Below are positions 10,311 to 33,180 of a stretch of 64,000 nt of DNA, one piece after another (the first letter of the stretch is position 1; each line of letters begins with the position of its first letter). The position numbers were made by a program, and so were the translations under genes. The stretch spans positions 857,501-921,500 of the forward strand of contig NZ_AP014809.1 of NCBI RefSeq assembly GCF_002355515.1, given 5' to 3'. The DNA comes from Methylorubrum populi (GTDB lineage Bacteria; Pseudomonadota; Alphaproteobacteria; Rhizobiales; Beijerinckiaceae). The notes beneath the pieces were generated by a model, which made no database searches, was not told the origin of the DNA, and saw nothing but the letters and a program-made list of their open reading frames with translations.

Positions 10311-12401
10311 ATGCCGAGACAGGGCCTGGTTTCCGCCGCGCGCCGCGCTTTTCACGAGGCCGCGTTCCTCCTGGCAGCCTGCCTCGTCCTCGCCGCACCG
10401 GCCCGCGCCGCGCCGGAGGCGGCGCCGTTCGCCGACAACGCCGACTCGGTCGCGGTGGTGATCGGCAACCGCAGCTACAAGCAGACGGTGCCGGTCGATT
10501 TCGCCCATAACGACGCCGAGGCGATCCGCGCCTACCTGATCGAGCGCCTGGGCTACCGCGAGAGCAACGTCTTCCTCCTGAAGGACGCGACCCTCAACGA
10601 GTTCAACCAAGTCTTCGGCACCGAGCGCAATCCGCAATCGGGCCGGCTCTGGCGCAGCGTGCGCGAGGGCCGCTCCAACGTCTTCGTCTACTATTCCGGC
10701 CACGGCGTGCCGGATCTGGCGAGCAAGCAGCCCTTCCTGCTGCCGGAGGACGGCAACCCGAACCAGGGCGAGAGCGGCTATGCCCTGGAGACCCTCTACC
10801 GCAACCTCGACCTCGTGAAGCGCAAGATCGGGCCGGAACGCCAGCTCGTGGTGATGGTCGATGCCTGCTTCACCGGCGAGACCGGCCGCAAGGGCGAGAG
10901 CCTGCTCGCGGTCTCCGCCCCCGGCTTCGCCCCGGCCCGGCCGAAGGCGGAGAGCGGGATCGTGCGCCTCGTCGCCACCTCCGGCGCGACGCCGGCGAAC
11001 TGGGACGAGCCGAACCGGCTCGGCCTTCTCACCAGCCGCTTCCTGATGGGCGTCTCGGGGCTCGCCGATGCCGAGGGCGCGGAGGGGACAAGCGACGGGC
11101 TGATCCGCTGGCCGGAGCTGAAGAGCTACCTGCGCCGCGAGGTCGAGGAGGCGGCGCGCCGCGCCTCGGGCCGCGAACAGGTGCCGGAGATCGACGACGC
11201 GCCGATCGTGCTGAAGGCTTCGCTCCCCGTCGCGGCGGTGGCCGGCGGCGTCGCCGCGATCCGCGACGAGGCGGCGTGGCGCCGCGCCGAGACGCTCGGC
11301 ACCCGCGAGGCGTTCGAGGCTTATGTCGGCACCTGCGGCGAGGCTTGCGCCTACCGCTCCCAGGCGATGGACCGCCTGCTCGCCGGCCGCAAGCGCGATG
11401 CGGCGGCGATCGACCAGGAGAATTGGGCAAAGTTCGGCGCGGCGCGGCAGTATCAGGCCTATCTCGATTCCTGCGGTGAGGTCTGCGCCTATCGCAGCCT
11501 CGCGGAGGGCTATCTCGGCGGCACGAACCCCAGCACCGATCCGCGGGTGAAGCGCTGCGACGAGCTCGCCGCCGGCACCGACGATCCCGACCGGCCGAAG
11601 GGCGTGCCGGGGGTGAAGCTCGGACGGATCGAGGCGTCCGCGGCCATCGAGGCCTGCCGCGGGGCGTCGGCGGCCTACCCGCAGCTGCGCCGCCTCGCCT
11701 ACCAGCTCGGCCGCGCCTACGACCGGGCCGACCGCTCCAAGGAGGCCTTCTCCGCCTACGATCGGGCGGCCAAAGCCGGCAGCATCGCGGCGATGAACAA
11801 CCTCGCCACGCTCTACGAGAACGGCCAGGGGGTGAAGCGCGGGCAAGCTGAGGCCTACCGGCTCTATCGGCAGGCGGGCGAGGCCGGCAACGTGGTGGCG
11901 CTCGCCAACGCCGCCCGGATGCTCGAATACGGCAACGGCATCCCCAAGGACGAGGCCGGCGCGGTGGCGCTCTACAAGCGCGCGGTGGAGGGCGGCGACG
12001 TGCCCTCGATCTCGAAGCTGGTGCCGCACTACGCCACCGGCGCCCACGGCTTCCCGAAGGACCTGCGCCAGGGCTTCGACCTGTTCCGCCGGGCGGCGGA
12101 CAAGGGCGATCCGGTCGCGATGGCGACGATGGCGACGCTGATCGACAACGGCTTCGGCCGCTACTTCCCCGGAATGCGCTCCGCCGACATGGTGCTGCGG
12201 GCGCTCAAGCGGGGCGAACTCGGCGCGGCGTCCGTCTCGGCCACCGACACGGCGGCGCAGAAGCTGAAGCCCGAGACGATCCGCACCGTCCAGCGCGCGG
12301 TCAAGGAGGCGGATTACTATTCCGGCGCCCTCGACGGCCGCTTCAACCCGGTCTTCGTCCGCGCCCTCGACCAGTACGCCCGGGCCAACGAGGCGGAATG
12401 A
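10311..12401 (+). CDS. Exported caspase-fold (peptidase C14) protein with Sel1 repeats
   Basis: This 696-residue protein has a Sec-type signal at about residues 14-34. A caspase-like domain follows (about 45-290) with the full catalytic dyad: His131 in YYSGHG and Cys186 in VDACFTGE. A pair of related motifs (YVGTCGEACAYRS and YLDSCGEVCAYRS) lies in the middle, then about four Sel1/TPR-like repeats (about 475-640) and a short helical tail. AGAGGA lies 8 nt before the ATG. The stop overlaps the next start (ATGA), so the two are translationally coupled. The dyad implies active cysteine protease; the signal implies action outside the cytoplasm, unlike most bacterial defence caspases. The substrate is unknown. 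Confidence 0.85.
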   Translation: MPRQGLVSAARRAFHEAAFLLAACLVLAAPARAAPEAAPFADNADSVAVVIGNRSYKQTVPVDFAHNDAEAIRAYLIERLGYRESNVFLLKDATLNEFNQVFGTERNPQSGRLWRSVREGRSNVFVYYSGHGVPDLASKQPFLLPEDGNPNQGESGYALETLYRNLDLVKRKIGPERQLVVMVDACFTGETGRKGESLLAVSAPGFAPARPKAESGIVRLVATSGATPANWDEPNRLGLLTSRFLMGVSGLADAEGAEGTSDGLIRWPELKSYLRREVEEAARRASGREQVPEIDDAPIVLKASLPVAAVAGGVAAIRDEAAWRRAETLGTREAFEAYVGTCGEACAYRSQAMDRLLAGRKRDAAAIDQENWAKFGAARQYQAYLDSCGEVCAYRSLAEGYLGGTNPSTDPRVKRCDELAAGTDDPDRPKGVPGVKLGRIEASAAIEACRGASAAYPQLRRLAYQLGRAYDRADRSKEAFSAYDRAAKAGSIAAMNNLATLYENGQGVKRGQAEAYRLYRQAGEAGNVVALANAARMLEYGNGIPKDEAGAVALYKRAVEGGDVPSISKLVPHYATGAHGFPKDLRQGFDLFRRAADKGDPVAMATMATLIDNGFGRYFPGMRSADMVLRALKRGELGAASVSATDTAAQKLKPETIRTVQRAVKEADYYSGALDGRFNPVFVRALDQYARANEAE

Positions 12402-13732
12402 GATCGCTCCTCCTCGCGGCTCTCCTCGTTCTTCCCACGGCCGCCCGCGCCGATCCGACCACCGCCACCCTCGCCCCGTTCCTCGACGCGGTGGCGGCCT
12501 GCACCGGACGGCCCGACCTGACGCTCGCCGTGGTCGGCGTCGAGCCGGGCCAGACGGCGCTCTCGCGCGAGCAGGCGGAGGAGGTGCGCCTCGCCGTCGA
12601 GAGCCGGCTCCAGGCGACCGGCCGCGTGCGGCTCGCCGCCGCCGCCGACGTGGTGCGGATCAAGGCGCTGCGCGAGGGCACGTCCGGCCTGTCTGGGGTG
12701 GAGGCCGAGGCGCAGATCCGCGCCGCCTTCGCGGGCGATGCCAGCGTCTTCCTGGTCGAGGCGCGCCGGGCCGGCGAGACTGCGGCCCTGCGGCTCCAGG
12801 CCATCACCCGTACCGCTGCCTGCAAGGCGACGAGCGAGCCCCTGATCGTGCCGATCCGCGTCGGGGCGGCCGTCGCCGATATCGACGCGGTGATGGAGGG
12901 CGCCGTGAAGGCCTTCGCCGCGGCGGCACCGAACGTGCAGGCCATCGAGGTCTGCCCCTTCGTGGCCGAGGGCGGGCACTCGACCTGCGCCGGCGCGCTC
13001 ACCGACCGCCTCCTCATCGCCCTCGATGCCGAGGCGCGCTCGGCCAACCGCATCCTCAAGGGCGCGCGCCTCGACGTGCGCCGCAGCCCGCCCGGCACCG
13101 CCTGCGCCGGGCCGGTCACCGCGCACGGCCGCTTCCTCACCGATCAGAGCCGGCAATCCTGGATGGAGCTGGAATTCCAGCGCGACGGCGCGGTGCTCGC
13201 CCCGACGGGGCGCCGCCGCATCGGCGTCGAGGGCCTTGGCTGCGATCCGACCCCGCGGCCCTTCCTCGACCATCTCGCGGCCACCGCCCGCACCGATGCG
13301 GGGCGGCTCACGGTCGCCGCCACCGCCACGCCGTTCTCCGCCGGGCAACGGCTGGAGATGCGCATCGAGTCGCGGGCTCGGCAGAATCTCTATTGCTGGG
13401 TGGTCGCCCCCGACGAGACGGCCTTCGTCGCCCTCCCCGTTCGCGGGAACGCCGCCTCGCTCGAAGCCCTCAAAGCCGGCGAGGCGCGGCGCTACCCGCG
13501 CGGCTACGGCCTCGACGAGATCGTCGCGGGCGAACCCTTCGAGAACCTGTTCGCCTGTTTCGGCGTCGAGGGCGGCCTGCCGCCGGATCTCGCCGGGCGC
13601 TGGCTCGCGGCGGCACCGGGCAAGGATGGAGAGGCGCGGCTGCTGCAGCCCTCCGACATGCTCGATCTTCTGGAAAAGATCCGGGCGACGCCCGGCGTGA
13701 CCGAGGCGACGGCGCGGATTGTGGTGCGCTGA
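12398..13732 (+). CDS. Secreted protein with C-terminal DUF4384-like domain
   Basis: This 444-residue protein has a signal peptide (residues 1-18). Residues about 40-180 read like a CsgG/TolB-type alpha/beta unit (SREQAEEVRLAVESRL, ADVVRIKALREG). The C-terminal part (about 308-410) resembles DUF4384, with an LYCWVVAPDETAF strand and a VRGNA loop. DUF4384 domains often sit beside or inside caspase-like proteins, which fits the 4-nt overlap with the caspase gene. No catalytic residues are visible, so a partner or regulator role is likely. The domain calls rest on pattern only. Confidence 0.7.
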   Translation: MRSLLLAALLVLPTAARADPTTATLAPFLDAVAACTGRPDLTLAVVGVEPGQTALSREQAEEVRLAVESRLQATGRVRLAAAADVVRIKALREGTSGLSGVEAEAQIRAAFAGDASVFLVEARRAGETAALRLQAITRTAACKATSEPLIVPIRVGAAVADIDAVMEGAVKAFAAAAPNVQAIEVCPFVAEGGHSTCAGALTDRLLIALDAEARSANRILKGARLDVRRSPPGTACAGPVTAHGRFLTDQSRQSWMELEFQRDGAVLAPTGRRRIGVEGLGCDPTPRPFLDHLAATARTDAGRLTVAATATPFSAGQRLEMRIESRARQNLYCWVVAPDETAFVALPVRGNAASLEALKAGEARRYPRGYGLDEIVAGEPFENLFACFGVEGGLPPDLAGRWLAAAPGKDGEARLLQPSDMLDLLEKIRATPGVTEATARIVVR

Positions 13733-13778
13733 CGCTCCGCCCGACGGCCGGGGGCAGCGCGAGAAGAGAGGGGTCGAC

Positions 13779-14072
13779 ATGGCGGTTCTGGCGGGAAGCT
13801 TTTTGGGCCTTGTCCTCGGCTCCGCGCTGCTCGGGGCGCTGTTCGCCTGGATCCTGCGACGCGCTCTGCCGATTCCCCTGGTCGCCTCCTACGCGGTCGG
13901 CACGGCGGCGATGACAGGGGTCTACGCATTCGCCGGTGCGGTCCCGCCCGCTCCGTTCGACCGGGGCGCTGCCTTCCTGGCCTTTAACCTCGCCGGAGGC
14001 GCTCTCGCCTTCGCGCTGCTCTGGCTGACCGCCGGGCGGCGCAAGGGAGCGGCCGGCAAGGCGGGCGCGTGA
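13779..14072 (+). CDS. Small three-helix membrane protein, unknown function
   Basis: This 97-residue protein has three hydrophobic segments (about 3-25, 30-52 and 63-85) and a short basic tail. GAGAGGGG lies upstream of the ATG. It lies 46 nt after the DUF4384-like gene and 4 nt before the next gene, within the same run. No family was recognised. Confidence 0.7.
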   Translation: MAVLAGSFLGLVLGSALLGALFAWILRRALPIPLVASYAVGTAAMTGVYAFAGAVPPAPFDRGAAFLAFNLAGGALAFALLWLTAGRRKGAAGKAGA

Positions 14073-14076
14073 GGCG

Positions 14077-15165
14077 ATGATGTCCTGGCGCCACGCCCTC
14101 GCGGCGGCCTGCCTCGTTGTCCTCGGCGCCTGCACGCAGAGCCGGGGCTGCGACCTCGACGCGCTTCGGCACTATCCGATGGCACAGGCCGTCGAGAGCC
14201 GGGCCGTGCCGCTGCGCATGCCCGACCTCTTCTTCCCCGGGCCGAACAAGCGGAATTTCGACCGCTTCTCCCTCGACGCAGCCGGCGCCGCGACGATGCG
14301 CTCCGCCCTCGCCCGGGGACTCAGGACCTTCGGCGAGGCCGAGCGTCCGGTCCTGCTTCTGGCCGCGCTCGATCACTGGACCAGTGGCGCAACCGGGCTG
14401 AAGGGCTTCTTCGTTCTCACCGACAGCGTCTTCCTCGACGAAGTCCTGAACGTTCTCGATGCCGAGGGGCTGCCCGCCCATGCCGCGCTGCTGCGCGAGG
14501 GAACGGCCCTGTTCGGCCCGGATTTCGGCGGCACGCAGGCCCAGCGCTACGCCCGCTGGAGCGACGGGCATGGCGAGATCCGCGACGAGAGGCTCGATGC
14601 CGCCCTGGACCGCCTGTCCGAGCGCTTCCGGACCCTTCCGCGGCCCCTGGATGAGGCGGTCGCGCGCATCGCCCGCTCGCCGGAACTGACCGCGATCTAC
14701 GAGCCCCTGCGAGCCGGGGCGGACGAAGACGACCGGCTCAGCTTCCTCACCGGCGGGCTCTGGCAGTGCCTGAACCACTACGACGCGCCCGCCGCGGTGG
14801 CCGCCCGTCTCGCCGCCCTGCCCGCGCCCCACGCCCGGATCATCGCCGTCCGGATCTTCGAGGCGGAGATGCTGAACGGCTCGGTGCACCAAGCCTTCTT
14901 CAACTCGTCCGGCGTGCTCGCCCCCGACGTGGCCGAGGCGCTGAAGGCGATGGGACTGCCCGGCCACGCCGCGGCGGTGGAGCGCGGCATCGCCCTGTTT
15001 CCCAAGCCCTATCCCCGGGACACGCAGGAGCGGCGCGCCTTCATGGGGCGGCAGAACGAGGCGTTCGACACGGCCCTCGGCAACCTGACCGGCGACGTGG
15101 ACGACGGGGCGATGCACGCGGCGATGATCGCCACGGCCCGCGCCGCCGACATCCTGCCGAAATGA
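14077..15165 (+). CDS. Lipoprotein with two DUF4375 (DMP19)-like units
   Basis: This 362-residue protein starts with a lipoprotein signal ending in the lipobox LGAC (Cys at about residue 19). The C-terminal half shows the DUF4375 pattern: MLNGSVHQAFFNSSG, then VAEALKAMGLPGHAAAVERG. The first half repeats this more loosely (TGLKGFFVLTDSVF, then EVLNVLDAEGLPAHAALLREG), so the protein looks like a diverged duplication. DUF4375 includes the DNA-mimic protein DMP19 and some immunity-type proteins. A membrane-anchored, duplicated form is unusual. Two adjacent ATG codons (14077, 14080) are possible starts. Confidence 0.7.
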   Translation: MMSWRHALAAACLVVLGACTQSRGCDLDALRHYPMAQAVESRAVPLRMPDLFFPGPNKRNFDRFSLDAAGAATMRSALARGLRTFGEAERPVLLLAALDHWTSGATGLKGFFVLTDSVFLDEVLNVLDAEGLPAHAALLREGTALFGPDFGGTQAQRYARWSDGHGEIRDERLDAALDRLSERFRTLPRPLDEAVARIARSPELTAIYEPLRAGADEDDRLSFLTGGLWQCLNHYDAPAAVAARLAALPAPHARIIAVRIFEAEMLNGSVHQAFFNSSGVLAPDVAEALKAMGLPGHAAAVERGIALFPKPYPRDTQERRAFMGRQNEAFDTALGNLTGDVDDGAMHAAMIATARAADILPK

Positions 15166-15259
15166 CGATCGCGCTTTCGTACGCGCCCGATCCCGATCGG
15201 GCTCTGCCCGGCCCATGGGGGAGCTGCGTCGCGCCTCGCGCGGGGCGGGAGGGTGACGG

Positions 15260-16729
15260 ATGGCCGGGCTCGGGATAACCATACGGCGAATCGAGGAATC
15301 GCAAGGGGTTGCACGGCGCCCCGGTATCGGGAGGCGCATGACCGGCGGGTACGACGAGCGTTGCGCGGCCGATCTGGCCGCAGTCTGCGACGGCCGCGAC
15401 CTCCCGCGCGAGGATCGCGTCTGGCTCGCCCGGGTCGTCACCGGCGCCGTGCGCCCGAACCGCGACAAGCCGCTCTGGGACCTCGCCCACGCCCTCGCCG
15501 CCCTGGCCCGCGCGACGGAGGCCGGGAGCGGGCGCGACCTCGTCACCCTGGCGCTCGACCCCGGCCTCGCGACCGGCCGAGCCGCGGAGGCGCGCTTTTC
15601 CGGCACGGTCGCCGCCGACAGCCGCGGCCCGGTCCTCGGCGAGGCGTGGCGCACGAGCTGGGCCGGCCTCGCGCGGCTGCTCGCCCTGGCCGAGTTCGTG
15701 CTGACGGCGGAGGATCTGGCGCAGTTCGCCACCGTGACGGGCTGGCTCGACGACCTGGCCGCCGCGCCCGATGCCGAGGGGGCCGCCTTCCTGGCCAAGC
15801 GCCTCGCCCGCCACCTCTCCGCCTACCGCAACGCCCACCTGCCGCTGGCACCGCTGGAGCGCCGCTTCCGCGCGATCCTCGGCTTCCTGGCCGGGCGCAA
15901 AGCCTTCACCGACGACGACATCCTTTCTTTCTGGCGCGGCGAGATGGAGGCGGGCGAACGGCCGGGCTTCCGCACCGTCGCCGAGCACTTCGTGACCTTC
16001 GAGGCGGGTGCGCATCTCGTCGGCGGCCTGGAGGGGCTGTCCGCCCCCGTCTCCCTCGACGCCCATGCGGGCTGGGAGGAACGGCTCGACGCCGCCCTCG
16101 GCGATCTCGCCGCCTCCGAGCCGGCCGAGACCCTTGTGACCCTTCTCGCCGACTGGCCGGAGGGTCCGAAGATCCTCACCGGCGCCGAGCGCGAGGAGCT
16201 GACCGATTTCCTGCGCCTGGAACCCTTCCACCGCACCCGCCCGCTGACGACGCTGCGGGCCGCGAGCTTCGGGCAGGTTCAATCGGGCATCGCCAACCGC
16301 CTGCGCCGGGGCGGGGGCGGCGGCGAAGTCGCCGAGCGGGCGACCTGCGCCGAAGCCCGGAGCTACGCGGAACTGCAGGAGCGGGCCGGGACGCTGGCGG
16401 CCCACCTCGCCCGGATGCTGCGCATCGCGGCGGCCCTGCGGATCGGCGAGCGCGATGGTCTCGATCCCGCGACGCGCGACGCGCTGGAAGCCGCGGAGGC
16501 AGATCTGCGCCGGGTGCGCCGGGCCGGCTTCGAGGAACGTACCGCCCTGGCCGCGGGCTTCGCCTCCGCCGAGACGGCGCTCCTGCGCCTGGCGGAGGAG
16601 GCCGGCCGGCTGGAACGGGCGCTCGCGGCGCTCGCCCGCCAGCGCCCCCTCGACGCGGCCTTCGCGGCGGACCGGTCCGTCTTCGCGGCAGCCTTCGCTG
16701 CGGCTTATGCCGGGGAGGCCGCCGCGTGA
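15260..16729 (+). CDS. Large alpha-helical cytosolic protein, unknown
   Basis: This 489-residue protein has no signal or membrane segment. It is dominated by Ala/Leu/Arg helices, with a strongly charged coiled-coil-like C-terminal third (about 380-470). The start at 15260 has GGAGG 7 nt upstream. A second start at 15338 also has GGGAG, so the true N-terminus may be 26 residues shorter. The stop overlaps the next start (GTGA). I do not recognise the family. Its position before a small cytosolic partner and a bitopic membrane protein suggests the cytoplasmic part of one complex. Confidence 0.65.
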   Translation: MAGLGITIRRIEESQGVARRPGIGRRMTGGYDERCAADLAAVCDGRDLPREDRVWLARVVTGAVRPNRDKPLWDLAHALAALARATEAGSGRDLVTLALDPGLATGRAAEARFSGTVAADSRGPVLGEAWRTSWAGLARLLALAEFVLTAEDLAQFATVTGWLDDLAAAPDAEGAAFLAKRLARHLSAYRNAHLPLAPLERRFRAILGFLAGRKAFTDDDILSFWRGEMEAGERPGFRTVAEHFVTFEAGAHLVGGLEGLSAPVSLDAHAGWEERLDAALGDLAASEPAETLVTLLADWPEGPKILTGAEREELTDFLRLEPFHRTRPLTTLRAASFGQVQSGIANRLRRGGGGGEVAERATCAEARSYAELQERAGTLAAHLARMLRIAAALRIGERDGLDPATRDALEAAEADLRRVRRAGFEERTALAAGFASAETALLRLAEEAGRLERALAALARQRPLDAAFAADRSVFAAAFAAAYAGEAAA

Positions 16730-17229
16730 GTGAAGACGCTCGATTGCTCGCCGAGATTCACGCTGCCCGTGCCCTGATGCGGGCGCCGCCTTCCGCGGCT
16801 CGACCGAGCCACGCCGCCCTCTGGGAGCATGTCAACCGGGATCCGGGAAGCCCCGTCGATCTCGCGGTGGTCCGGGCGATCCGCTCCGACCCGGAGACCG
16901 CCCGGCGCTACCGCACGCTGCTCGGCGCGCAGGCCGTTGCCCATGCTCCCCTCGCCGCGGCGGCCTCGGACGGCTCGCTGACCCGGCGTCGGGTCGGCCC
17001 GTTCGAGCTGGAGATCCTCGACGGCACGCCCCCGCTCCTGATCCTGCGCGGGCCGGACGAGCGGATGCCGCGGCGGATCGAGACCTGGCTCGGCGACGAG
17101 GCGGTGCGGCTCGATCTCGGCGCGCCGTTCGACGGCGCGATCCTGCTCGCCCTCGATCCGGCCGTGGCCGAGGCCGACCGGCTCGGGCAGATGCTGCGCG
17201 ACCCCGCCTGCGCGGTGTTTCTGTTGTGA
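16726..17229 (+). CDS. Small cytosolic protein coupled to 489-residue partner, unknown
   Basis: This 167-residue protein begins with GTG overlapping the preceding TGA, so translation is probably coupled. Residues about 1-70 are helical with many charged residues. The rest alternates short strands, with LEILDGTPPLLILRG and an acidic tail. There is no signal or membrane segment and no recognised domain. Tight coupling predicts a stoichiometric partner of the upstream protein. Confidence 0.6.
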   Translation: MSEDARLLAEIHAARALMRAPPSAARPSHAALWEHVNRDPGSPVDLAVVRAIRSDPETARRYRTLLGAQAVAHAPLAAAASDGSLTRRRVGPFELEILDGTPPLLILRGPDERMPRRIETWLGDEAVRLDLGAPFDGAILLALDPAVAEADRLGQMLRDPACAVFLL

Positions 17230-17278
17230 GCGGACAGGTTGTGCGAAGACGGGCCGCGCCCCGGCGGACGACCCGCGC

Positions 17279-18493
17279 ATGAGCGGGACTGCGATCCTCG
17301 TCGTGATCCCGACCACGCGGGGGCCGCTCTGCCTGCGCGGGTTGAGCCCGCGCCCCGGCCTCCCGGCGCCGGCCGCCTTCGCCGACGGCGACTACCGCCC
17401 GCTGCCCTGGTCGGCCGACTACGCCCGGCTCTGTGCGCCGGGCGGGCCCGTCGCCCGGCTCGGCGCGGAGGCGGGAGCGCCGCACGAACTGCGCCTGTCC
17501 GGCTCGTTCGACGCCGGCCGCTCGTGGGAGGTTCCGGTCTGCCTCGCCCACGGCCTCGCGGCGCGCGGCCATCGCTTCGTCGCGGAGCCGGTGCAGGCCG
17601 ACCTGATCCTCTGGGCGACGGGCGCGGTCGATCGCGATCTCGCGGTGCTGCCCGGCGACTACGCGCTCCTCGACAAGATCGAACGCTCCCGCACCCTGCT
17701 CGCCGAGGTACCGGAGGTACCACTCGCGGTTCTGCTGCCGGAGGGGCCGGAGCGGGCGCCGGCCGAGGCGGCCTTCCTCTCCCTCGCACGGGCCGAGACG
17801 CCGCAGATCCTGCCCGCCGGACATGTGCCGGCCGCCGTGGAGGCGCTGACCGGGCCGAAAGGCGCGGACCGGCCGGACCCGCGCCGGCACTGGCGGCGCG
17901 TCGCCCTGCCGGCGGGCGCCGCCGCGGCGGCCGGCCTCGTCGGACTGGCCGGGTTCATGGCTCTTGCGGGGCGGCAGGCTCCCGTCATCAAGTCGGCGAG
18001 CGATCCGGCGGCCGTCGCCGTGTCGGCCGAACCCGTGCGGACGGCGGAGACCGACCCGCCCTCCCCGTCCGCGTCGGAGAAGCCGATCGCGGAGAAGACG
18101 GCGGCCGAGAAGCCGGCCGCGATCCGCGTCGAGGAATTGCGGGCCCCGCCCGGTTCGTCCTGCCGCCGCGTGGCCTTCGGCGCCGACCCGCCCGAGCGCC
18201 GCGCCGTGGCACCGGAGGGCGCAGAGCGCCTCGCTCCGACCCGGCTCGTGCCCGAATTGTGCGGGCTGGCCATCGCGGCGGCGCCCGGCCTGCGCCTCGA
18301 AATCGGGCCGGAGCTGCGCGCCGCCGCCCTGCCTCCGGTCCGGCTCGCGGACGGGGCGCAGGGCTTCTACCTCCGCGAGGGCGGCCGGCATAACCTCGTC
18401 TACGCGGTCCATGCCCTGCCGGAGGCCAAGGCGCGGCCGGAGGCAGGCGCCGCGCCGCCGGGCGAGCGGCTCGTCCATGCCCTGACACGCTGA
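17279..18493 (+). CDS. Bitopic membrane protein linking cytosol and periplasm, unknown
   Basis: This 404-residue protein has a soluble N-terminal domain (about 1-200), an arginine-rich patch (PRRHWRR, about 201-207) and one membrane helix (about 208-230). A low-complexity Ala/Glu/Lys/Pro linker (about 235-285) and a periplasmic domain with two cysteines follow. The positive patch before the helix indicates N-in, C-out topology. The N-terminal domain resembles nothing I can name. The gene stands between two cytosolic partner genes and the exported trypsin-like protease, which would suit a trans-membrane coupler. That role is inference. Confidence 0.65.
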   Translation: MSGTAILVVIPTTRGPLCLRGLSPRPGLPAPAAFADGDYRPLPWSADYARLCAPGGPVARLGAEAGAPHELRLSGSFDAGRSWEVPVCLAHGLAARGHRFVAEPVQADLILWATGAVDRDLAVLPGDYALLDKIERSRTLLAEVPEVPLAVLLPEGPERAPAEAAFLSLARAETPQILPAGHVPAAVEALTGPKGADRPDPRRHWRRVALPAGAAAAAGLVGLAGFMALAGRQAPVIKSASDPAAVAVSAEPVRTAETDPPSPSASEKPIAEKTAAEKPAAIRVEELRAPPGSSCRRVAFGADPPERRAVAPEGAERLAPTRLVPELCGLAIAAAPGLRLEIGPELRAAALPPVRLADGAQGFYLREGGRHNLVYAVHALPEAKARPEAGAAPPGERLVHALTR

Positions 18494-18574
18494 TGGGTGT
18501 GCAGTCCGCACCCTGAGACTTTTGACCCAGCCGTACCGGCCGGGCATACAACCCTGACGGAGAGGAGGGAGACG

Positions 18575-19603
18575 ATGACCCCGATTCGCCGGAGACGCCG
18601 GCCCGCCCGATCGGCCTCGAGCGCCGCCGCCCTGCTGCTCGCGCTGGGCCCGGCCGTCATCGGCGCGGCCGATTCCGCGCTCGCACAGAGCCTCGGCTTC
18701 GACCCCGCCGATTACGGCCGGGCCCAGCTTCCCTTGCGCCAAACCACCGGCGACGCGGCGGCCTATGTCGACCAGAACAAGGGCGCGTTCGAGCCGATCA
18801 GCGAGCTCGACCCGAAGGACGGGCTCGCCGCGCTGGCCCGCCCGATCGGACGCGTCGATATCGTCCTGCGGAACGCCCGCACCGGGCAGCAGGTCGGCGC
18901 CTCCTGCACCGGCGCGTTGCTGCCCGGCGACTACGTGCTGACCAACCATCACTGCCTGCCGCAATCGGGCGACCTCGCTCCGGTCAAGGCGTCGATCCTG
19001 ATGGATTACCTGACGCTCGACGGCAAAGGCGCGCGCCGCTTCGAAATCGACCCGAAGCCGGTCGAGTACGACGCCCGCCTCGACTACGCGCTCGCTCGCG
19101 TCGCCGGGAACCCGAGCGCCGCCTACGGCACCGTCCGCCTCTCGGGCGAGGCCGTGCCGGGCAACCGCTCGATGCTGGTGATCCACCACCCCCTCGGGCG
19201 GCCGAAGGTGATGAGCCGCTTCCGCTGCTTCGCGATGAAGGATCAGGCCGAGGGGCCGGACCTGCGCCACCGCTGCGACACGCTGGGCGGTTCCTCCGGC
19301 TCGCTGATGTTCGATGCCTCCGTCGCCGGCATCGCCCTGCACAAGGAGGGCGGCCTCGACCCGAAGGACCCGTCGAGCTTCAACAAGGCCACGCGGCTCT
19401 CGGCCATCCTCGAACGCAGCCGCATCCTGTCCGGGATCGCCGCCGCCCAGGGCCGCCCGGTCGCCGCTGCGGCGGACACGCCGCCTCCGGCGGGCGCGGG
19501 GCCGAAGACCGGCGCGACCCCCGCCGCGAAACCCTCCGCCGGACCGCCCGCGGATGGGCCCCTCGATCCCGCAAGCATGAACGCGATCCTGCGCGGGCGC
19601 TGA
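18575..19603 (+). CDS. Exported trypsin-like serine protease
   Basis: This 342-residue protein has a signal peptide (about residues 1-38). A trypsin-fold domain carries a complete catalytic triad: His126 in TNHHC, Asp170 in RLDYAL and Ser241 in GGSSGS. Cys111 and Cys127 flank the histidine and could pair. A Pro/Ala-rich C-terminal tail (about 285-330) probably acts as a flexible tether. GGAGGG lies 5 nt before the ATG. It is the second protease of this gene run, with a mechanism different from the caspase. The substrate is unknown. Confidence 0.85.
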   Translation: MTPIRRRRRPARSASSAAALLLALGPAVIGAADSALAQSLGFDPADYGRAQLPLRQTTGDAAAYVDQNKGAFEPISELDPKDGLAALARPIGRVDIVLRNARTGQQVGASCTGALLPGDYVLTNHHCLPQSGDLAPVKASILMDYLTLDGKGARRFEIDPKPVEYDARLDYALARVAGNPSAAYGTVRLSGEAVPGNRSMLVIHHPLGRPKVMSRFRCFAMKDQAEGPDLRHRCDTLGGSSGSLMFDASVAGIALHKEGGLDPKDPSSFNKATRLSAILERSRILSGIAAAQGRPVAAAADTPPPAGAGPKTGATPAAKPSAGPPADGPLDPASMNAILRGR

Positions 19604-19703
19604 GCAAAGTTCTTTCGTGAGCAGACGGCGAAAACCGCTCTGCGGAGTCCAGGGATGAGTGGGACGGGGCCGCGGCAAGGCCCGTGAGACGGAGACGGAC
19701 GCC

Positions 19704-20558
19704 ATGGGGGCAATCGAACGGAGCGCGCCCGCGCGCGGCGGAACAGCGGTCATCGACGTAGCGACGGCGCGGCTTGCGCGCCTCGCGCTGATGCTGGCGG
19801 CGAGCGCGGCGCTTGCCCTCGCGCCCGCCCGCGCCAACCCGCTGACCGAGGTACCGGGCACTCGCCCGCCTGCCGCCGAGGGGGAAGCCGGAGCGGAGGT
19901 GCCCCCGGCCCGCGACGAGGCCGCCGAGCGGGCCGAGGCCGGGGCGGTGAACCCCTCGGCCAACGCGATCATCCGCTCGCTCGCGCCCTTCGCCGACGGC
20001 AATCCGGGCCGTCCCGCCGCGCCGGTCGCGGTCTCGCCCGGCGACGGCGGCCCGAGTCTGCGGGTCGATCCCGCCCGCTCGGTCGATCTCACCGTGTTCT
20101 TCGCCTACGACAGTGCCCGCCTGACGCCGGAGGCGCGCATTCAGCTCGAACCGCTGGGCCAGGCGCTGCAGGCCCGCGAGCTTTCCGGCCACGGCTTCCT
20201 CATCGCGGGGCACACCGATGCGGCGGGCGGGCTCGGCTACAACCGGCGCCTTTCGCTCGCCCGCGCCCGCAGCGTGAAGGCCCATCTCGTCGAGACCTAC
20301 GGCATCGATCCGCGCCGTCTGCGCATCCACGGCTGGGGACCCGTGCGCCCCAAGGACCCGTCCCAGCCCTTCGCGCGGATCAACCGGCGGGTCGAGGTCA
20401 GCCTGATCGCGCCCGCGCCGAGCGGCGCCCTGCGCTTCATCCTGCCGGCCTCCGAGCGAACCTGCGCGGCCGACGCGCCGGACGATCCCCGCCGCCGGGT
20501 CACGCTCGACCTCGACGATTTCGGCGCGGCACCGACGCCCCTGCCCTGCACCGAGTGA
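19704..20558 (+). CDS. OmpA-family peptidoglycan-binding protein
   Basis: This 284-residue protein has a long N-terminal signal (hydrophobic core about 24-44), a Pro/Ala/Glu-rich linker, and an OmpA C-terminal domain at about 130-240. The domain shows FFAYDSARL, the GHTD loop with the Asp that binds diaminopimelate, and the NRRVE motif with the binding arginine. It has no beta barrel and no lipobox, so it probably holds a complex to the cell wall from the periplasm. The ATG at 19704 has GGAGAC 8 nt upstream. The two C-terminal cysteines could form a disulfide. Confidence 0.85.
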   Translation: MGAIERSAPARGGTAVIDVATARLARLALMLAASAALALAPARANPLTEVPGTRPPAAEGEAGAEVPPARDEAAERAEAGAVNPSANAIIRSLAPFADGNPGRPAAPVAVSPGDGGPSLRVDPARSVDLTVFFAYDSARLTPEARIQLEPLGQALQARELSGHGFLIAGHTDAAGGLGYNRRLSLARARSVKAHLVETYGIDPRRLRIHGWGPVRPKDPSQPFARINRRVEVSLIAPAPSGALRFILPASERTCAADAPDDPRRRVTLDLDDFGAAPTPLPCTE

Positions 20559-20620
20559 ACCGCGCCACACCACCGCCGGCCAACGGCCCAACACACAGCC
20601 CGACACACAGGATGACACCG

Positions 20621-21583
20621 ATGCTGCGTACCCGAACGCGTGACCGCCTCCTCGCCCTCGCTCTGATCGGCGGCTCCCTCCTCGGCCTCGCCGCCCAGGT
20701 GCAGGCGCAGACCCGGCCCAACATCGTCGTGATGGGCGAGGATGCCGACGAGGATTCGGTGCCCCGCGGCAACCGCATCTTCCAGCGCGTCATCGCCGAA
20801 CTCTCCGAGACGATGAACCTGCGCGGCTACAACGTCTACGACGAGACGGCGGTGGCGATGGGGATCACCCAGGCCAACCGGGTCCGCCGCCGCGACGCGG
20901 AGCTGATCGAGGTCGCCCGCGCGGTCCAGAACCCGCCGCTCGACGTGGTGGCGGTGTTCCAGGTCTACGCCTCGGCCTCGAAATCGGCCTATTCCGACAT
21001 CGTGCGGCCGGAGGTGCGCATCCCCGGCCGGCTCCTCAACGTGCGCACCGGGCAATCGCTCGGCGCCTTCGAGGTGGCGGGGCTGCAGCTTCCGCCCCTG
21101 CCGCAGGGCTGCGACCGGGAATGCCTGCTCGAACGGGTCGGCGCGGAGGCGAAGAGCATCGCCGCCGATGTCGCTACCGCGCTCACGGCCAAGCTCGACG
21201 GCGTGATCGCCCCCCGCCGAGCCGCCGATACCGGGGCTCCGCCGGCCGGACTTCCGAACGCCCTGCCCGGCGCCGAGCCTCCGCCCGCCGCGGCCGTCGG
21301 GGAATCCTGCGGCGGCCTGCCGACGGCCTATGTCGTGCGCCTCAACGGCTTCTCGCCCCAGGAGGTGCAGGCGGCCGAGGAGTACATGGCCGCCTTCCGC
21401 TGCTACGAGCACCACCGCCCGGTGCGCTCGGGCGGGGCCACCGCCGAGTACTGGTACGAGACCCGCTCCGATTCCGCCCGGCTCGGCCGCAACCTGCGCC
21501 TGATGCTGGAGCACATGAGCGCGCCGGGGCAGGTCCAGTTCTCCGGCAACACCTTCGTCGTCAGCCGCGTCGCCACCCGCTGA
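20621..21583 (+). CDS. Exported LpoB/CsgG-like protein, unknown function
   Basis: This 320-residue protein has a signal peptide (about residues 1-29). Residues about 32-200 follow an LpoB/CsgG-like alternation, with strand IVVMGED, helix RGNRIFQRVIAELSETM and strand YNVYDETAVAMG. A second small alpha/beta unit ends the protein (about 230-320, YVVRLNGF then RLGRNLRLMLEHM). There is no lipobox, so it is probably soluble in the periplasm. Similar folds build secretion pores or activate cell-wall synthases; neither role can be assigned. The fold call is by pattern only. An alternative ATG lies at 20612. Confidence 0.65.
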   Translation: MLRTRTRDRLLALALIGGSLLGLAAQVQAQTRPNIVVMGEDADEDSVPRGNRIFQRVIAELSETMNLRGYNVYDETAVAMGITQANRVRRRDAELIEVARAVQNPPLDVVAVFQVYASASKSAYSDIVRPEVRIPGRLLNVRTGQSLGAFEVAGLQLPPLPQGCDRECLLERVGAEAKSIAADVATALTAKLDGVIAPRRAADTGAPPAGLPNALPGAEPPPAAAVGESCGGLPTAYVVRLNGFSPQEVQAAEEYMAAFRCYEHHRPVRSGGATAEYWYETRSDSARLGRNLRLMLEHMSAPGQVQFSGNTFVVSRVATR

Positions 21584-21639
21584 TCCCGGTGCCGGATCCC
21601 CAGCGACGCCCTTCCGCACGCAGCCTTCGGAGAGACGCC

Positions 21640-22629
21640 ATGACCGATCGCATCCCTCTTCGCCGCCGGTTCGCCCGCCTCGTTCCCAGCCGGTGGGCGC
21701 TGCGCAGCCTGCTCGCCGGACTGGTCGCCTCCGCCGCGCCGGTCTTCGCGGCCGAGCCCGTCTTCCCGCCCGCCGGGTCGCTCGGCCTCGCGCCGCCGCC
21801 GGGCATGAAGCCGGCCGCGAGCTTCGCGGGCTTCGAGCACCGCTCGGGCGCCTCGATCGTCCTCGTGGAGATGCCGCCGGAAGCCTGGGACCAGATCAAC
21901 GGGAAGTTCACGCCCGAGGCGCTGGCGCCATCCGGCTTCCGGGTGAAAAGCGGGCCCGAACCGCTGAGCACGGCGGGCGGCGAGGGCTTCGTCCTGCGCG
22001 GCACGCAGGGCGCCAACGGGTTGACCTACGCCAAGTGGGTCGCCGTGATCCGCGGCGCCGCGGGCACCGGGCTCGTGACCGTCCAAGTGCCCGAGGCGGC
22101 GGCCAAGCAGGTGCCGGCGCCTACGGTCGAGGCAGCGCTGCGCACGATCGCGTTCAGGCCCAAGGCGAGCCTCGCCGATCAAGTCGCCGCCCTGCCCTTC
22201 ACCGTCGGCGACACCGCCGGCTTTCGCCCGATCGGCGTCTTTGCCGGCAACGGCCTGCTCCTGACCGAGGGGCCGAAGGACGTCGATCCCGAGCGCGAGC
22301 AGCCCGTGGTCGTCATCACGCCGTCGCTGGGGCAGGCGCCGGTCCCGGCGGGTGCGGAGACGACTTACGCCCGCCGGCTCTTCGCCGCGCAGAAGGACCT
22401 GACGAACGTCGTCGTCACCGACGAGGACCGCAGCACCCGGGGCGACGCGGTCGTGGTCCGCCTTCGCGGCACCGGCACCGACGCCAAGACCGGACGCACG
22501 CTCGGCCTGACCCAGATGACGGTGTTCGAGGGCGGGCGCTACCTGCGGGCGATCGGCTTCGCCGATATCGACCGCACCGACGCGCTGGCCCGCGCCGAGC
22601 GCGTCGCCGCCTCGGTCGCGATGCGGTGA
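21640..22629 (+). CDS. Secreted protein of unknown function
   Basis: This 329-residue protein has a signal peptide (about residues 20-38, cleavage near VFAAEP). The mature protein is mainly beta-type with two similar-looking halves (GFEHRSGASIVLVEMP, later GVFAGNGLLLTEGP), each followed by a strand-rich segment. GGAGAG precedes the ATG. I do not recognise a named family. The stop overlaps a short downstream frame (GTGA). Confidence 0.65.
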   Translation: MTDRIPLRRRFARLVPSRWALRSLLAGLVASAAPVFAAEPVFPPAGSLGLAPPPGMKPAASFAGFEHRSGASIVLVEMPPEAWDQINGKFTPEALAPSGFRVKSGPEPLSTAGGEGFVLRGTQGANGLTYAKWVAVIRGAAGTGLVTVQVPEAAAKQVPAPTVEAALRTIAFRPKASLADQVAALPFTVGDTAGFRPIGVFAGNGLLLTEGPKDVDPEREQPVVVITPSLGQAPVPAGAETTYARRLFAAQKDLTNVVVTDEDRSTRGDAVVVRLRGTGTDAKTGRTLGLTQMTVFEGGRYLRAIGFADIDRTDALARAERVAASVAMR

Positions 22630-22781
22630 GCTGGCGCGTCTATCGCCGCGCCCGCTGCGAGGGCGAGGTGGCGGTCTCGTTCACCGGCGGCACCGGCCGC
22701 AACGCGGCTGTTCTGATCGGCCTGCTAGTCCAGGCCGGCCGGAGCACCGCCGAACTCACCGACCTGGCAGGGATGGATTGA
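22626..22781 (+). CDS. Possible coupled 51-residue protein
   Basis: A GTG start overlaps the preceding stop (GTGA), the same coupling seen at 16726. The peptide is basic at the N-terminus with a glycine-rich turn (TGGTGRNAAV) and an amphipathic helix. It has no signal peptide, although it follows a secreted protein. No family was recognised. It may be a chance extension, so confidence is limited. Confidence 0.4.
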   Translation: MSWRVYRRARCEGEVAVSFTGGTGRNAAVLIGLLVQAGRSTAELTDLAGMD

Positions 22782-27325: not shown

Positions 27326-29647
<2,322 letters not shown>

Positions 29648-29817
29648 GCGACGAACGGCGATCCGGCAGTCGAGCCGCCTGCATCCGGTGACAGACGCGG
29701 ACGGCATCCGCAGATTCGCCGCTTTTTCCGGCTTTGTGCCCGGCGCAAGGTGCCGGGCCTCGTCTCTCGCGCCAGTTGTCGGCGGCGGCGCGGCGGGTGT
29801 TCGGCGGGGGGGCTCCG

Positions 29818-30519
29818 ATGCTGCGGGGCCGGCCCGCATCGTTCGCCGACGGAGCCCATCGAACCGTGATCCGCTTCGAGAACGTCACCAAGGTCTATTC
29901 CACCTACGGGCGGCGGCGCACGATCCTCGACCGGGTGAACTTCACCCTGAAGCCCGGCATCAGCTACGGCATCATGGGGATCAACGGTGCCGGCAAATCG
30001 ACGACGATGAAGCTCATCTCCGGTGTCGAGGAACCGACCCGCGGCCGCATCTCCCGGGGCCTGCGCGTGTCCTGGCCGCTCGGCTTCGCGGGCGGCTTCA
30101 ACCCGAGGATGACGGGACGGGACAACGTCATCTTCGTCGCCAGGATCTACGGGGAGGATCCGCGCCGCGTGCTCGAATTCGTCGAGGACTTCTCCGAGCT
30201 CGGCAGCTACCTGAACATGCCGGTGAACACCTACTCCTCCGGTATGGGCTCGCGGCTCGCCTTCGGGATGAGCATGGCGATCCCCTTCGACACCTACCTC
30301 ATCGACGAGACGCTCTCGGTGGGCGATGCGCGCTTCCAGAAACGCTGCGCGGACGTGTTCAACAAGCGGCGCGAGACCGCGGACGTGATCCTGATCTCCC
30401 ACAGCATGGAGCAGATCCGCGAATACTGCAGTCAGGCCCTCATCCTGATCAACGGGCAGGCGGTGGTGTACGACGACGTCGACGAGGCGATCACGGCCTA
30501 TCGCCGCCTGAACAGCTAA
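29818..30519 (+). CDS. kpsT: Polysaccharide export ABC ATPase (KpsT type)
   Basis: This 233-residue ATPase has Walker A GINGAGKST (about 54-62), signature YSSGMGSRL (about 139-147), and Walker B with catalytic Glu164 in YLIDETLS. Its short length, lacking the extra C-terminal binding domain, fits the capsule export group (KpsT/BexA/CtrD) rather than O-antigen Wzt. It would drive lipid-linked capsule export. A GTG at 29866 would give the classical MIRFENVTK start; 29818 was chosen for the G-rich site before it. The permease gene is not next to it. Confidence 0.88.
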   Translation: MLRGRPASFADGAHRTVIRFENVTKVYSTYGRRRTILDRVNFTLKPGISYGIMGINGAGKSTTMKLISGVEEPTRGRISRGLRVSWPLGFAGGFNPRMTGRDNVIFVARIYGEDPRRVLEFVEDFSELGSYLNMPVNTYSSGMGSRLAFGMSMAIPFDTYLIDETLSVGDARFQKRCADVFNKRRETADVILISHSMEQIREYCSQALILINGQAVVYDDVDEAITAYRRLNS

Positions 30520-30668
30520 AGGACGGCCGCTTCGGCCTTCCGGGCCGCTCTCGTCAGCGGATCGGACACGCTTTCGCCGCGAGGGCGGGTCACAGACGAA
30601 ATCGTGCGGTCCGCCGCGGCTCCCGACGCCGCGCGGCAGACCGCCTGGGGCGTGCGGGCACCGAGACC

Positions 30669-31913
30669 ATGAGCACCGAGATCAGCAGTCCGAGCGGCGC
30701 ACCGCTGACCACCGCCGACCGCTCGACCGCCGTCGCGGAATCGCTCAAGCGGTTCGCACGCATCGCGCGGCAATCCGATCACAAGAAGGGCATCCGCGCC
30801 TACCAGACGCATATCCGGCGCGATCCTTGGATCCCGGTCCTCTTCGTCGTCCTGTTCCTGCTGCCGACGCTCGTTACTTCCGGATACTACTATCTCATCG
30901 CCTCGGACCGCTACATCACCGAGGCCCGCTTCGCCCTGCGGCCGGCGCTCGGCAGCGTCGACAAGGTCCAGAGCGACGAGACGGGCAGCAACAGCTCGAT
31001 GTCCAAGCAGATGATCGCTCAGGACACGCTGATCACGATCAGCTACATCGCCAGCCGGCAGATGGTCGAGGCGATGGAGCGGCAGATGCCGCTGCGGGAG
31101 ATGTTCTCGCGCGACGGCATCGACTTTTTCTCGCGCTTCGACGCCAACGAGCCGATCGAGCTGTTCCTGCGCTACTGGCACAAGCGCGTCACGACGAAGG
31201 TCGACTCGAACGGCGGCATCGTCACCCTGAATGTCGCCGCCTTCGATCCGGAGGAATCCTACCGGCTCGCCCGCGCTTTAATGGAAGAGAGCGAGCGGAT
31301 GGTGAACGAGCTCAGCGTCAGGGCGCGCAACGCCGCCCTCGCCGAGAGCACGCGCGAGCTCAAGAATGCCGAGGAACGCCTTCTCACCGTGCAGCGCGCC
31401 ATGCGCGACCTGCGAAACCGCGCCGGCGTTCTGGATGCGCAATCGGCCAACAAGAACAATCTCACGGTCATCGCGGAGCTGCGCAAGAAGCGCATCGAGC
31501 TCTCCGTCCAGCTCAATCAGAGCCTGCGCGACCTCGCCCCCGAACGGCGGCAGATCCAGGACCTGAAGGCACAGATCCAGGATCTCGACGACAACATCGA
31601 GAAGATCGAACGGCAGATGACCAGCACCGATCCGGAGCAGCGTCGCCTGCTGTCGGAGGCGATGACGGAGTTCGAGGGGCTGGAGAACGAGCGCAAGAAC
31701 GCGCAGCTCTATTACAACAAGGTACTGGCCGCGAGCGAGCAGGCGCGCATCATCGCCAACCGCCAGATCGAATTCTTCACGCCCGTGGTCAACCCGGTGG
31801 TTCCCATCTCGGCGATCGAGCCGCGCCGCCATCTCATCACCAGCATCGTCGCGCTGGTGGCGATGGCGGTGTTCGGCTTCAGCGTCGTGATCCGGAAGTA
31901 TCTCTACAGCTGA
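30669..31913 (+). CDS. kpsE: Capsule polysaccharide export inner-membrane protein (KpsE/CtrB type)
   Basis: This 414-residue protein has a cytosolic N-terminus, one helix at about 54-76, a long periplasmic region with coiled coil (about 215-340), and a second helix near the C-terminus (about 390-408). This is the polysaccharide co-polymerase layout of KpsE/BexC/CtrB. These proteins link the KpsMT transporter to the outer-membrane channel. It follows the KpsT-type ATPase by 149 nt. The pair supports an ABC-dependent capsule or similar glycan. Confidence 0.85.
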   Translation: MSTEISSPSGAPLTTADRSTAVAESLKRFARIARQSDHKKGIRAYQTHIRRDPWIPVLFVVLFLLPTLVTSGYYYLIASDRYITEARFALRPALGSVDKVQSDETGSNSSMSKQMIAQDTLITISYIASRQMVEAMERQMPLREMFSRDGIDFFSRFDANEPIELFLRYWHKRVTTKVDSNGGIVTLNVAAFDPEESYRLARALMEESERMVNELSVRARNAALAESTRELKNAEERLLTVQRAMRDLRNRAGVLDAQSANKNNLTVIAELRKKRIELSVQLNQSLRDLAPERRQIQDLKAQIQDLDDNIEKIERQMTSTDPEQRRLLSEAMTEFEGLENERKNAQLYYNKVLAASEQARIIANRQIEFFTPVVNPVVPISAIEPRRHLITSIVALVAMAVFGFSVVIRKYLYS

Positions 31914-33106: not shown

Positions 33107-33180
33107 CGTAGACCCGGCAAATCCTGCCGGGTGCGGACCTGCGGATGGGCCGCGCGATTCGACTTCGAGGACTCGACGCG

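Follow-up and report, generated by a model that had tools for sequence, protein, structure and literature searches.

Introduction

What bacterial caspases do natively is for the most part an open question. Membrane-anchored Lon-type domains are represented by archaeal LonB, which possesses an AAA+ module, and by the YlbL-type proteins of Bacillus, which carry a PDZ domain and act outside the membrane. A caspase and a predicted Lon-type domain occur together in the locus analyzed here, a run of eleven likely proteins (g01 to g11) encoded on the plus strand from 10311 to 22629 of a 64,000-nucleotide window of Methylorubrum populi (positions 857501-921500 of a 5.7-Mb contig, in a genome totaling 5.94 Mb). 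The exported caspase of this run shares a conserved gene order with another exported protease, beside a membrane protein whose predicted Lon-type fold is invisible to current annotation.

The closest described systems each share some of these elements. LonC proteins are reported, in the available part of PMC3391209, to be devoid of ATPase function and to bear an insertion after the helix of the catalytic lysine. The available part of PMC3501461 lists metacaspases with Sel1 or wall-binding domains, places OmpA in 14 of 217 metacaspase operons and leaves the function of 70 of these operons unknown. In this work we compare the M. populi run with its relatives in other genomes and tentatively read it, as the leading one of several possibilities, as a system of the cell envelope that moves horizontally and serves regulated proteolysis, with the triad g05-g06-g07 at its core.

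Results

The core of the system is the triad g05-g06-g07, not the two exported proteases. The first gene (15260..16729) encodes an all-helical protein of 489 residues whose start may lie at 15338, the second (16726..17229) a protein of 167 residues, and the third (17279..18493) a protein of 404 residues, to which we refer through its Lon-type gene. As the preliminary description of this DNA had held, g05 and g06 are cytosolic proteins with no signal or membrane stretch, and g07 is bitopic, with one strong membrane stretch at about residues 202-230; these assignments, like all export signals given below, were made by eye and by hydropathy. Related loci, each represented by a stretch of at most 20 kb and some by less, were labeled by similarity to a few seeds, and part of the labels were checked with Pfam. 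The Lon-type gene was present in 51 of 60 labeled loci. A g05-type gene lies upstream of it, that is, on the same strand and within 6.5 kb, in 50 of the 51, and both partners do so in 49; since L055 and L077 are the same place, the latter figure corresponds to 48 of 50 distinct loci. Both partners were likewise found in 16 of 18 loci chosen for carrying the Lon-type gene.

Several observations count against our reading of the run. L085 has no recognizable g06, and in L133 no 489-residue gene was found and the 167-type gene lies on the opposite strand. Within the stretches covered, 26 of the 51 Lon-type loci are free of any label for caspase, trypsin or S8, 14 have no OmpA label and 13 no g10 label. 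Of the protease labels, the one for S8 in L039 is probably spurious, and L134 contains an unlabeled trypsin-like gene by eye.

Pfam finds no family in g05, g06, g07 or g10, NCBIfam and PADLOC return nothing convincing for g05 and g07 and no family for g06, and searches of the PDB with the g05, g07 and g10 profiles gave no convincing sequence match. The AlphaFold model of g05 (predicted local distance difference test score, pLDDT, of 88.7) is nearly all helix, and Foldseek finds no match to it at E<=0.001.

The preliminary description did not recognize the fold of g07. Its AlphaFold model is confident and places a Lon proteolytic fold, modeled with high confidence, in the cytosolic half (approximately residues 2-193, with Ser82 and Lys133), followed by an arginine-rich stretch preceding the membrane helix and by a periplasmic beta domain; Lon proteolytic domains rank first in structure searches with this model. 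Among 78 aligned relatives reaching down to 13% identity with g07, the order G-x-S-W, A-H, T-G, K is preserved, with Y48, G80, S82, W83, A90, H91, G115 and K133 invariant in 78/78 and Thr114 in 77/78. Lon domains display the same succession of Ser, Thr-Gly, Lys and Pro. Comparison with 16 usable Lon domains, drawn from 30 loci, shows that the distance from Thr to Lys is 18-19 residues in 69 of the 78 members and 18 in all 16 Lon domains, and that the intervals from Ser to Thr (32-37 vs 25) and from Lys to Pro (18-23 vs 15) are longer in the g07 family.

Some results speak against a protease reading of this domain. Sequence homology to Lon_C is not detected, Pfam assigning no family to g07, and the profile link is weak (hhalign E 0.013, probability about 3%). 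The Foldseek TM-scores are modest (for 1xhk, 0.26 by query and 0.49 by target, with a root-mean-square deviation of 6.6). In a forced full-length hhalign path Ser82 aligns with the Lon serine and TG with TG, but Lys133 misses the catalytic lysine through gap placement, from which a shift of the gap by one residue would bring it into register. RadA, ComM and BrxL, which use Lon-like domains without peptidase activity, also match g07 in the structure searches. In a rival explanation, the Lon-type domain would serve as a scaffold without catalysis, like its counterparts in RadA or ComM, and g07 would be just a transmembrane connector; we regard this as improbable, given that Ser82, Lys133 and Gly115 never vary among relatives so divergent and Thr114 does so only once. 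Because homology to Lon_C by sequence was not detected, we speak of a Lon-type fold rather than of an S16 family member. The predicted fold, together with a candidate Ser-Lys dyad whose order, spacing and invariance agree with Lon, would fit a putatively catalytic domain. Pfam finds no AAA+ module in g07, whose 404 residues are taken up by protease fold, linker, helix and beta domain; g07 is thus not an ATP-dependent Lon, and any cuts it makes would therefore be limited, not processive.

The beta domain contains two cysteines (C295 and C328), each kept in 77 of the 78 members. In three loci of one order, a separate signal-bearing gene directly downstream of the Lon-type gene (L129:8517-9059, L130:8594-9100 and L135:9151-9708, minus strand), overlapping it by 4 bp in L129 and L130, codes for a protein homologous to the beta domain (17-24 bits, against a database of three sequences) with a similar cysteine pair. 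Because these stand-alone homologues carry signals, they lend independent support to a periplasmic location of the g07 C-terminal domain. At L133:9535-11679 the Lon-type gene has a different C-terminal region, LprI-like by eye, and in Methylobacterium oryzihabitans (L013:4157-5238, the same place as in L042) it is split into two overlapping frames, which may be a real split or a sequencing error. Kinship of g07 with SrfA was considered and rejected: the NCBIfam match is weak (E 0.062 in g07, 0.013 at best, in 11 of 78 relatives), falls on the helix and the proline-rich linker, and is rivaled by unrelated families such as GltJ (13/78).

Gene order around the triad is conserved. A pattern-based scan of a species-genome collection with the g10 family yielded 42 loci. 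The test of order was applied to the labeled loci holding all eight labels. The order caspase, DUF4384-like, 489, 167, 404, trypsin, OmpA, g10, which apart from the DUF4375 protein is the one that the preliminary description had put forward for testing, is exact in 18 of these 20 loci, so that orthologues are not scattered and the arrangement is more than chance. The two departures are L035, where the Lon-type open reading frame (ORF) runs into the trypsin ORF, and L039, where the ORFs are in pieces. The ordered loci belong to Methylobacterium-type genomes and to one member of the Rhodobacterales, Actibacterium (L040), in which the set is complete.

The run also moves as a block: it has a plasmid copy, its flanks differ among Methylobacterium genomes, it is patchy within the genus and it is complete in Rhodobacterales L040. 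The g07 gene was detected in 34 of 111 genomes of the genus (one match spanning 41 residues at a contig edge and another being distant, E 8e-10), in 13 of 297 genomes of the order and in 14 of 398 of the phylum, samples that share a few same-genus genomes. Among 72,556 plasmid records it occurs in one, a 463-kb mobilizable plasmid of Methylobacterium aquaticum that carries homologues of g01, g02 and g05-g11 in the same order, the triad being annotated as hypothetical, with a toxin-antitoxin pair and an integrase some 5-7 kb beyond the block. Relatives of the downstream genes g12, g14 and g15 of the window adjoin the plasmid block (L136:3640-5335 and 17516-17773), g12 and g14 lying upstream of the caspase gene, and because of this adjacency the three may be further accessory members. 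The Tex-type gene that the window has downstream of the run persists in five close relatives (L021-L024, L041) and was not seen in the other 18 loci, some of which are short.

Patchiness, carriage on a plasmid and the proximity of a toxin-antitoxin pair and an integrase also fit a defence or regulated-death system, in which infection or damage would trigger the triad and the caspase and trypsin would execute envelope damage. Prokaryotic conflict systems repeatedly contain caspase, trypsin, OmpA, PEGA, Sel1 and FGE (FGS) parts, and OmpA, PEGA and Sel1 effectors are found in iSTAND ternary systems, according to the available part of PMC7159879. PADLOC matches its caspase model to g01 (E 1.1e-10) and its ZorB models to the OmpA protein (E 3e-5 and 9e-4), all as single-domain matches, and it reports no complete catalogued anti-phage system in the block and no match to the triad. 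We consider a role in defence doubtful: the exported proteases face the periplasm or the outside, no STAND, MoxR or vWA family appears among the scanned proteins and g07 has no match in 50,697 phage records.

The exported proteases themselves are well defined. The first, g01 (10311..12401, 696 residues), combines a C14 caspase domain (Pfam E 1.7e-8) with Sel1 repeats (E 3.1e-15) and a possible C-terminal peptidoglycan-binding domain that stays under the Pfam cut-off (E 0.1). The second, g08 (18575..19603, 342 residues from its signal-bearing ATG, within a longer GTG ORF that starts at 18497), contains a Trypsin_2 domain (E 2.1e-12). Both were described earlier as having complete active sites, and they do, with a His-Cys dyad in g01 and a His-Asp-Ser triad in g08 that identify them as a C14 caspase and a trypsin-like protease. 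With residues numbered from 10311 for the caspase and from 18497 for the trypsin, H152, D196 and S267 of g08 are retained by all 26 aligned sequences, and H131 and C186 of g01 by 20 and 22 of 24, respectively. The dyad is kept in untruncated relatives; the misses come from ORFs cut off where the locus ends (L031, L032, L039) and from a single kinase-Sel1 protein (L056) recruited through its Sel1 repeats. A second, stronger caspase-domain protein is encoded elsewhere in the same genome (L001, G000:C1:489913-490548, in a 938-residue open frame).

These proteases belong to a second, variable module, in which OmpA and g10 are accompanied by caspase, trypsin and/or subtilase, and which also occurs with no Lon-type gene in the stretch examined (e.g. 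L047, L048 and L057). Because the exported proteases vary among loci, periplasmic cleavage would be a possible input or output that is not always needed. At L079:10124-12745 a Lon-type domain, a Ser/Thr kinase and TonB_C are joined in one predicted membrane protein of 873 residues, a fusion which argues that the g07-type membrane protein carries a signal. A neighboring protein has an FHA match, which is clear in L084, a locus that also encodes a kinase-PEGA-FGE protein, and just below the cut-off in L079.

Outside the Alphaproteobacteria (e.g. in Alteromonas), as well as in L052, SLT transglycosylases and up to six small envelope families accompany the triad. SLT-labeled genes occur in 9 of the 51 Lon-type loci (Pfam-checked only in L055), and in all nine Bosea-type loci the triad is convergent with SEDS and transpeptidase genes (Pfam-checked only in L018, with SEDS just below the cut-off). 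In L018:103-6691 and other Bosea-type loci the convergent genes encode a 300-residue protein, a transpeptidase and a 1011-residue SEDS-type protein whose N-terminus looks FHA-like by eye. These neighbors, and the OmpA domain of the block, would be expected of a regulator of cell-wall growth or remodeling that monitors and adjusts the synthesis of peptidoglycan, in the way that Lpo lipoproteins act on synthases, its proteases trimming wall enzymes. We nonetheless deem such a regulator unlikely, as Pfam recognizes no wall enzyme among the block proteins, LpoB homology is unconfirmed and the block, unlike core wall regulators, is patchy and plasmid-borne. A single protein query returned no relative of the Bosea SEDS protein from this genome, an empty answer that counts as uninformative.

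The abundance of envelope proteins, including the small membrane or exported families F5-F10 that surround the triad outside the Alphaproteobacteria, could also suggest an apparatus for export or contact-dependent delivery, in which the exported proteases would be maturases or cargo. This is the least probable of the alternatives, and a very unlikely one: no secretion ATPase, pore or pilin was recognized among the scanned proteins, which include part of the neighbors. Families F5-F10 have no Pfam names (L078:15023-19302 and equivalents), and the interpretation by eye of F9 as a MotA/ExbB-type membrane protein was dropped when Pfam gave it no backing.

The remaining members of the run are envelope proteins; hydrophobic N-termini ending in AxA-type sites or a lipobox are visible in g01, g02, g04, g08, g09, g10 and g11. 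The exported protein g02 (12398..13732, 444 residues) was labeled DUF4384-like; Pfam detects no DUF4384, nor any family at the cut-off, and an hhalign match (E 7e-4, probability 27%, against E 0.6 for a control family) to a profile of four DUF4384 relatives, three of them Pfam-positive, is suggestive. Absent from the earlier gene list, g03 (13779..14072, 97 residues) is predicted by hydropathy to have two membrane helices and resembles DUF5665 below the Pfam cut-off; it is optional, with a homologue in one (L032) of the 23 loci L020-L042. The duplicated DUF4375 lipoprotein, g04 (14077..15165), is confirmed as two stretches of DMP19 (=DUF4375; Pfam E 2.4e-26) behind the lipobox LGAC, and is an optional insert that 4 of the 20 fully labeled loci contain.

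Pfam likewise confirms the OmpA domain of the exported g09 (19704..20558, 284 residues; E 3.1e-17). The label LpoB/CsgG-like for the exported g10 (20555..21583, or possibly from 20612) is unconfirmed: Pfam recognizes no family, and its 23 relatives give weak stray matches, such as DUF4136 in 2 of 23, with a best E of 0.048. Its best PDB sequence match is 8t8d (E 0.0028 over 64 positions), and its CxxxC pair (C166 and C170, numbered from 20615) is invariant across 23 aligned relatives. The last gene, g11 (21640..22629), encodes an exported accessory protein of 329 residues with no Pfam family at the cut-off and with homologues in 18 of the loci L020-L042 and on the M. aquaticum plasmid.

The end of the run had been set at 22781 by a GTG ORF (21693-22781), which we discard as a shadow frame; the likely gene downstream of the one labeled LpoB-like is g11. 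Of the many overlaps claimed between starts and preceding stops, those of 4 bp at 12398/12401 and 16726/16729 hold and that at 20555/20558 does so only if g10 begins at its GTG, so that overlap is mild overall. A scan for promoters and terminators gave no promoters and two minus-strand terminator-like sites, against 3.8 expected. Further downstream in the window, translations inspected by eye show a capsule-export-like protein (29421-31913) and an FlhA-like flagellar export protein (33145-35325).

Discussion

The anatomy of an envelope-spanning device is well supported by these results, and its function we infer. The preliminary description had proposed a trans-envelope protease set matching no described system. 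Conserved order and mobility of the block support this in part, and the literature searched offered no match; the set is centered on the Lon-type triad, the DMP19 lipoprotein is optional and the LpoB/CsgG assignment is unconfirmed.

In the mechanism that we propose, an outer arm would here consist of the OmpA protein g09, in probable contact with the wall, of g10 and g02, and of the two exported proteases. An envelope change may be sensed by g09, g10 or g02, possibly relayed through cleavage by the caspase or the trypsin, and the signal would cross the inner membrane via the periplasmic domain and helix of g07 to switch the cytosolic Lon-type domain, which could then make limited cuts in a partner or target. 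Since they are present almost wherever the Lon-type gene occurs, g05 and g06 are the first candidates for an adaptor, inhibitor or substrate of this domain. Catalysis, the direction of the signal, the substrates, and the physical assembly of the parts and its anchoring to the wall are suggestions of this scheme.

If g07 is an active protease under periplasmic control, it would provide a new route for inward signaling by proteolysis. More broadly, and with somewhat greater reserve than for the M. populi run itself, we suggest that the triad may define a type of horizontally mobile transmembrane signaling device that has not been described before and whose range takes in Alphaproteobacteria together with one or more further classes. 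In such devices a stand-alone Lon-type Ser-Lys protease domain would be connected across the inner membrane with a sensor in the periplasm, and two cytosolic proteins would be its dedicated partners. It would be coupled to exported proteases that can stand in for one another (caspase, trypsin, subtilase) in some cases and to signaling through a Ser/Thr kinase and FHA in others. Devices of this kind would amount to a protease relay across the Gram-negative envelope.

Literature searches, in which coverage of subscription papers and preprints was poor, revealed no paper joining DUF4384 with OmpA and no caspase-OmpA family operon, and the terms Lon, OmpA, periplasm, DUF4384 and peptidoglycan are absent from the available part of PMC8195603. 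Because the gene set matches no described system in the literature searched, we regard it as new in kind, the domain of g07 being a Lon variant. The run resembles the metacaspase operons of PMC3501461 in its Sel1 and possible peptidoglycan-binding domains and in the presence of OmpA, and differs from them in the triad, the Lon-type domain and the order of the block, which the available main-text parts of that source do not describe. It resembles the iSTAND and vWA-MoxR ternary conflict systems, some of them membrane-linked, in which caspase and trypsin are alternative peptidases and OmpA, PEGA, Sel1 and FGS parts occur (PMC7159879, in whose available main text the word Lon does not appear); their defining vWA, MoxR and STAND/VMAP components were not found in the block proteins scanned, among which g06 and g10 have no family at all. 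In contrast to LonB and YlbL, g07 is predicted to have its protease fold on the cytosolic side of the membrane and a different domain on the outer side. The nearest enzymatic relative in kind is LonC (e.g. MtaLonC), which shares with g07 the Lon proteolytic fold, Ser and Lys in the same order and additional residues that separate the Lys helix from the strand after it. Where g07 departs from LonC is in its Pfam-invisible architecture, an N-terminal protease fold of about 195 residues that is followed, with no ATPase-like module, by a membrane helix and a periplasmic domain.

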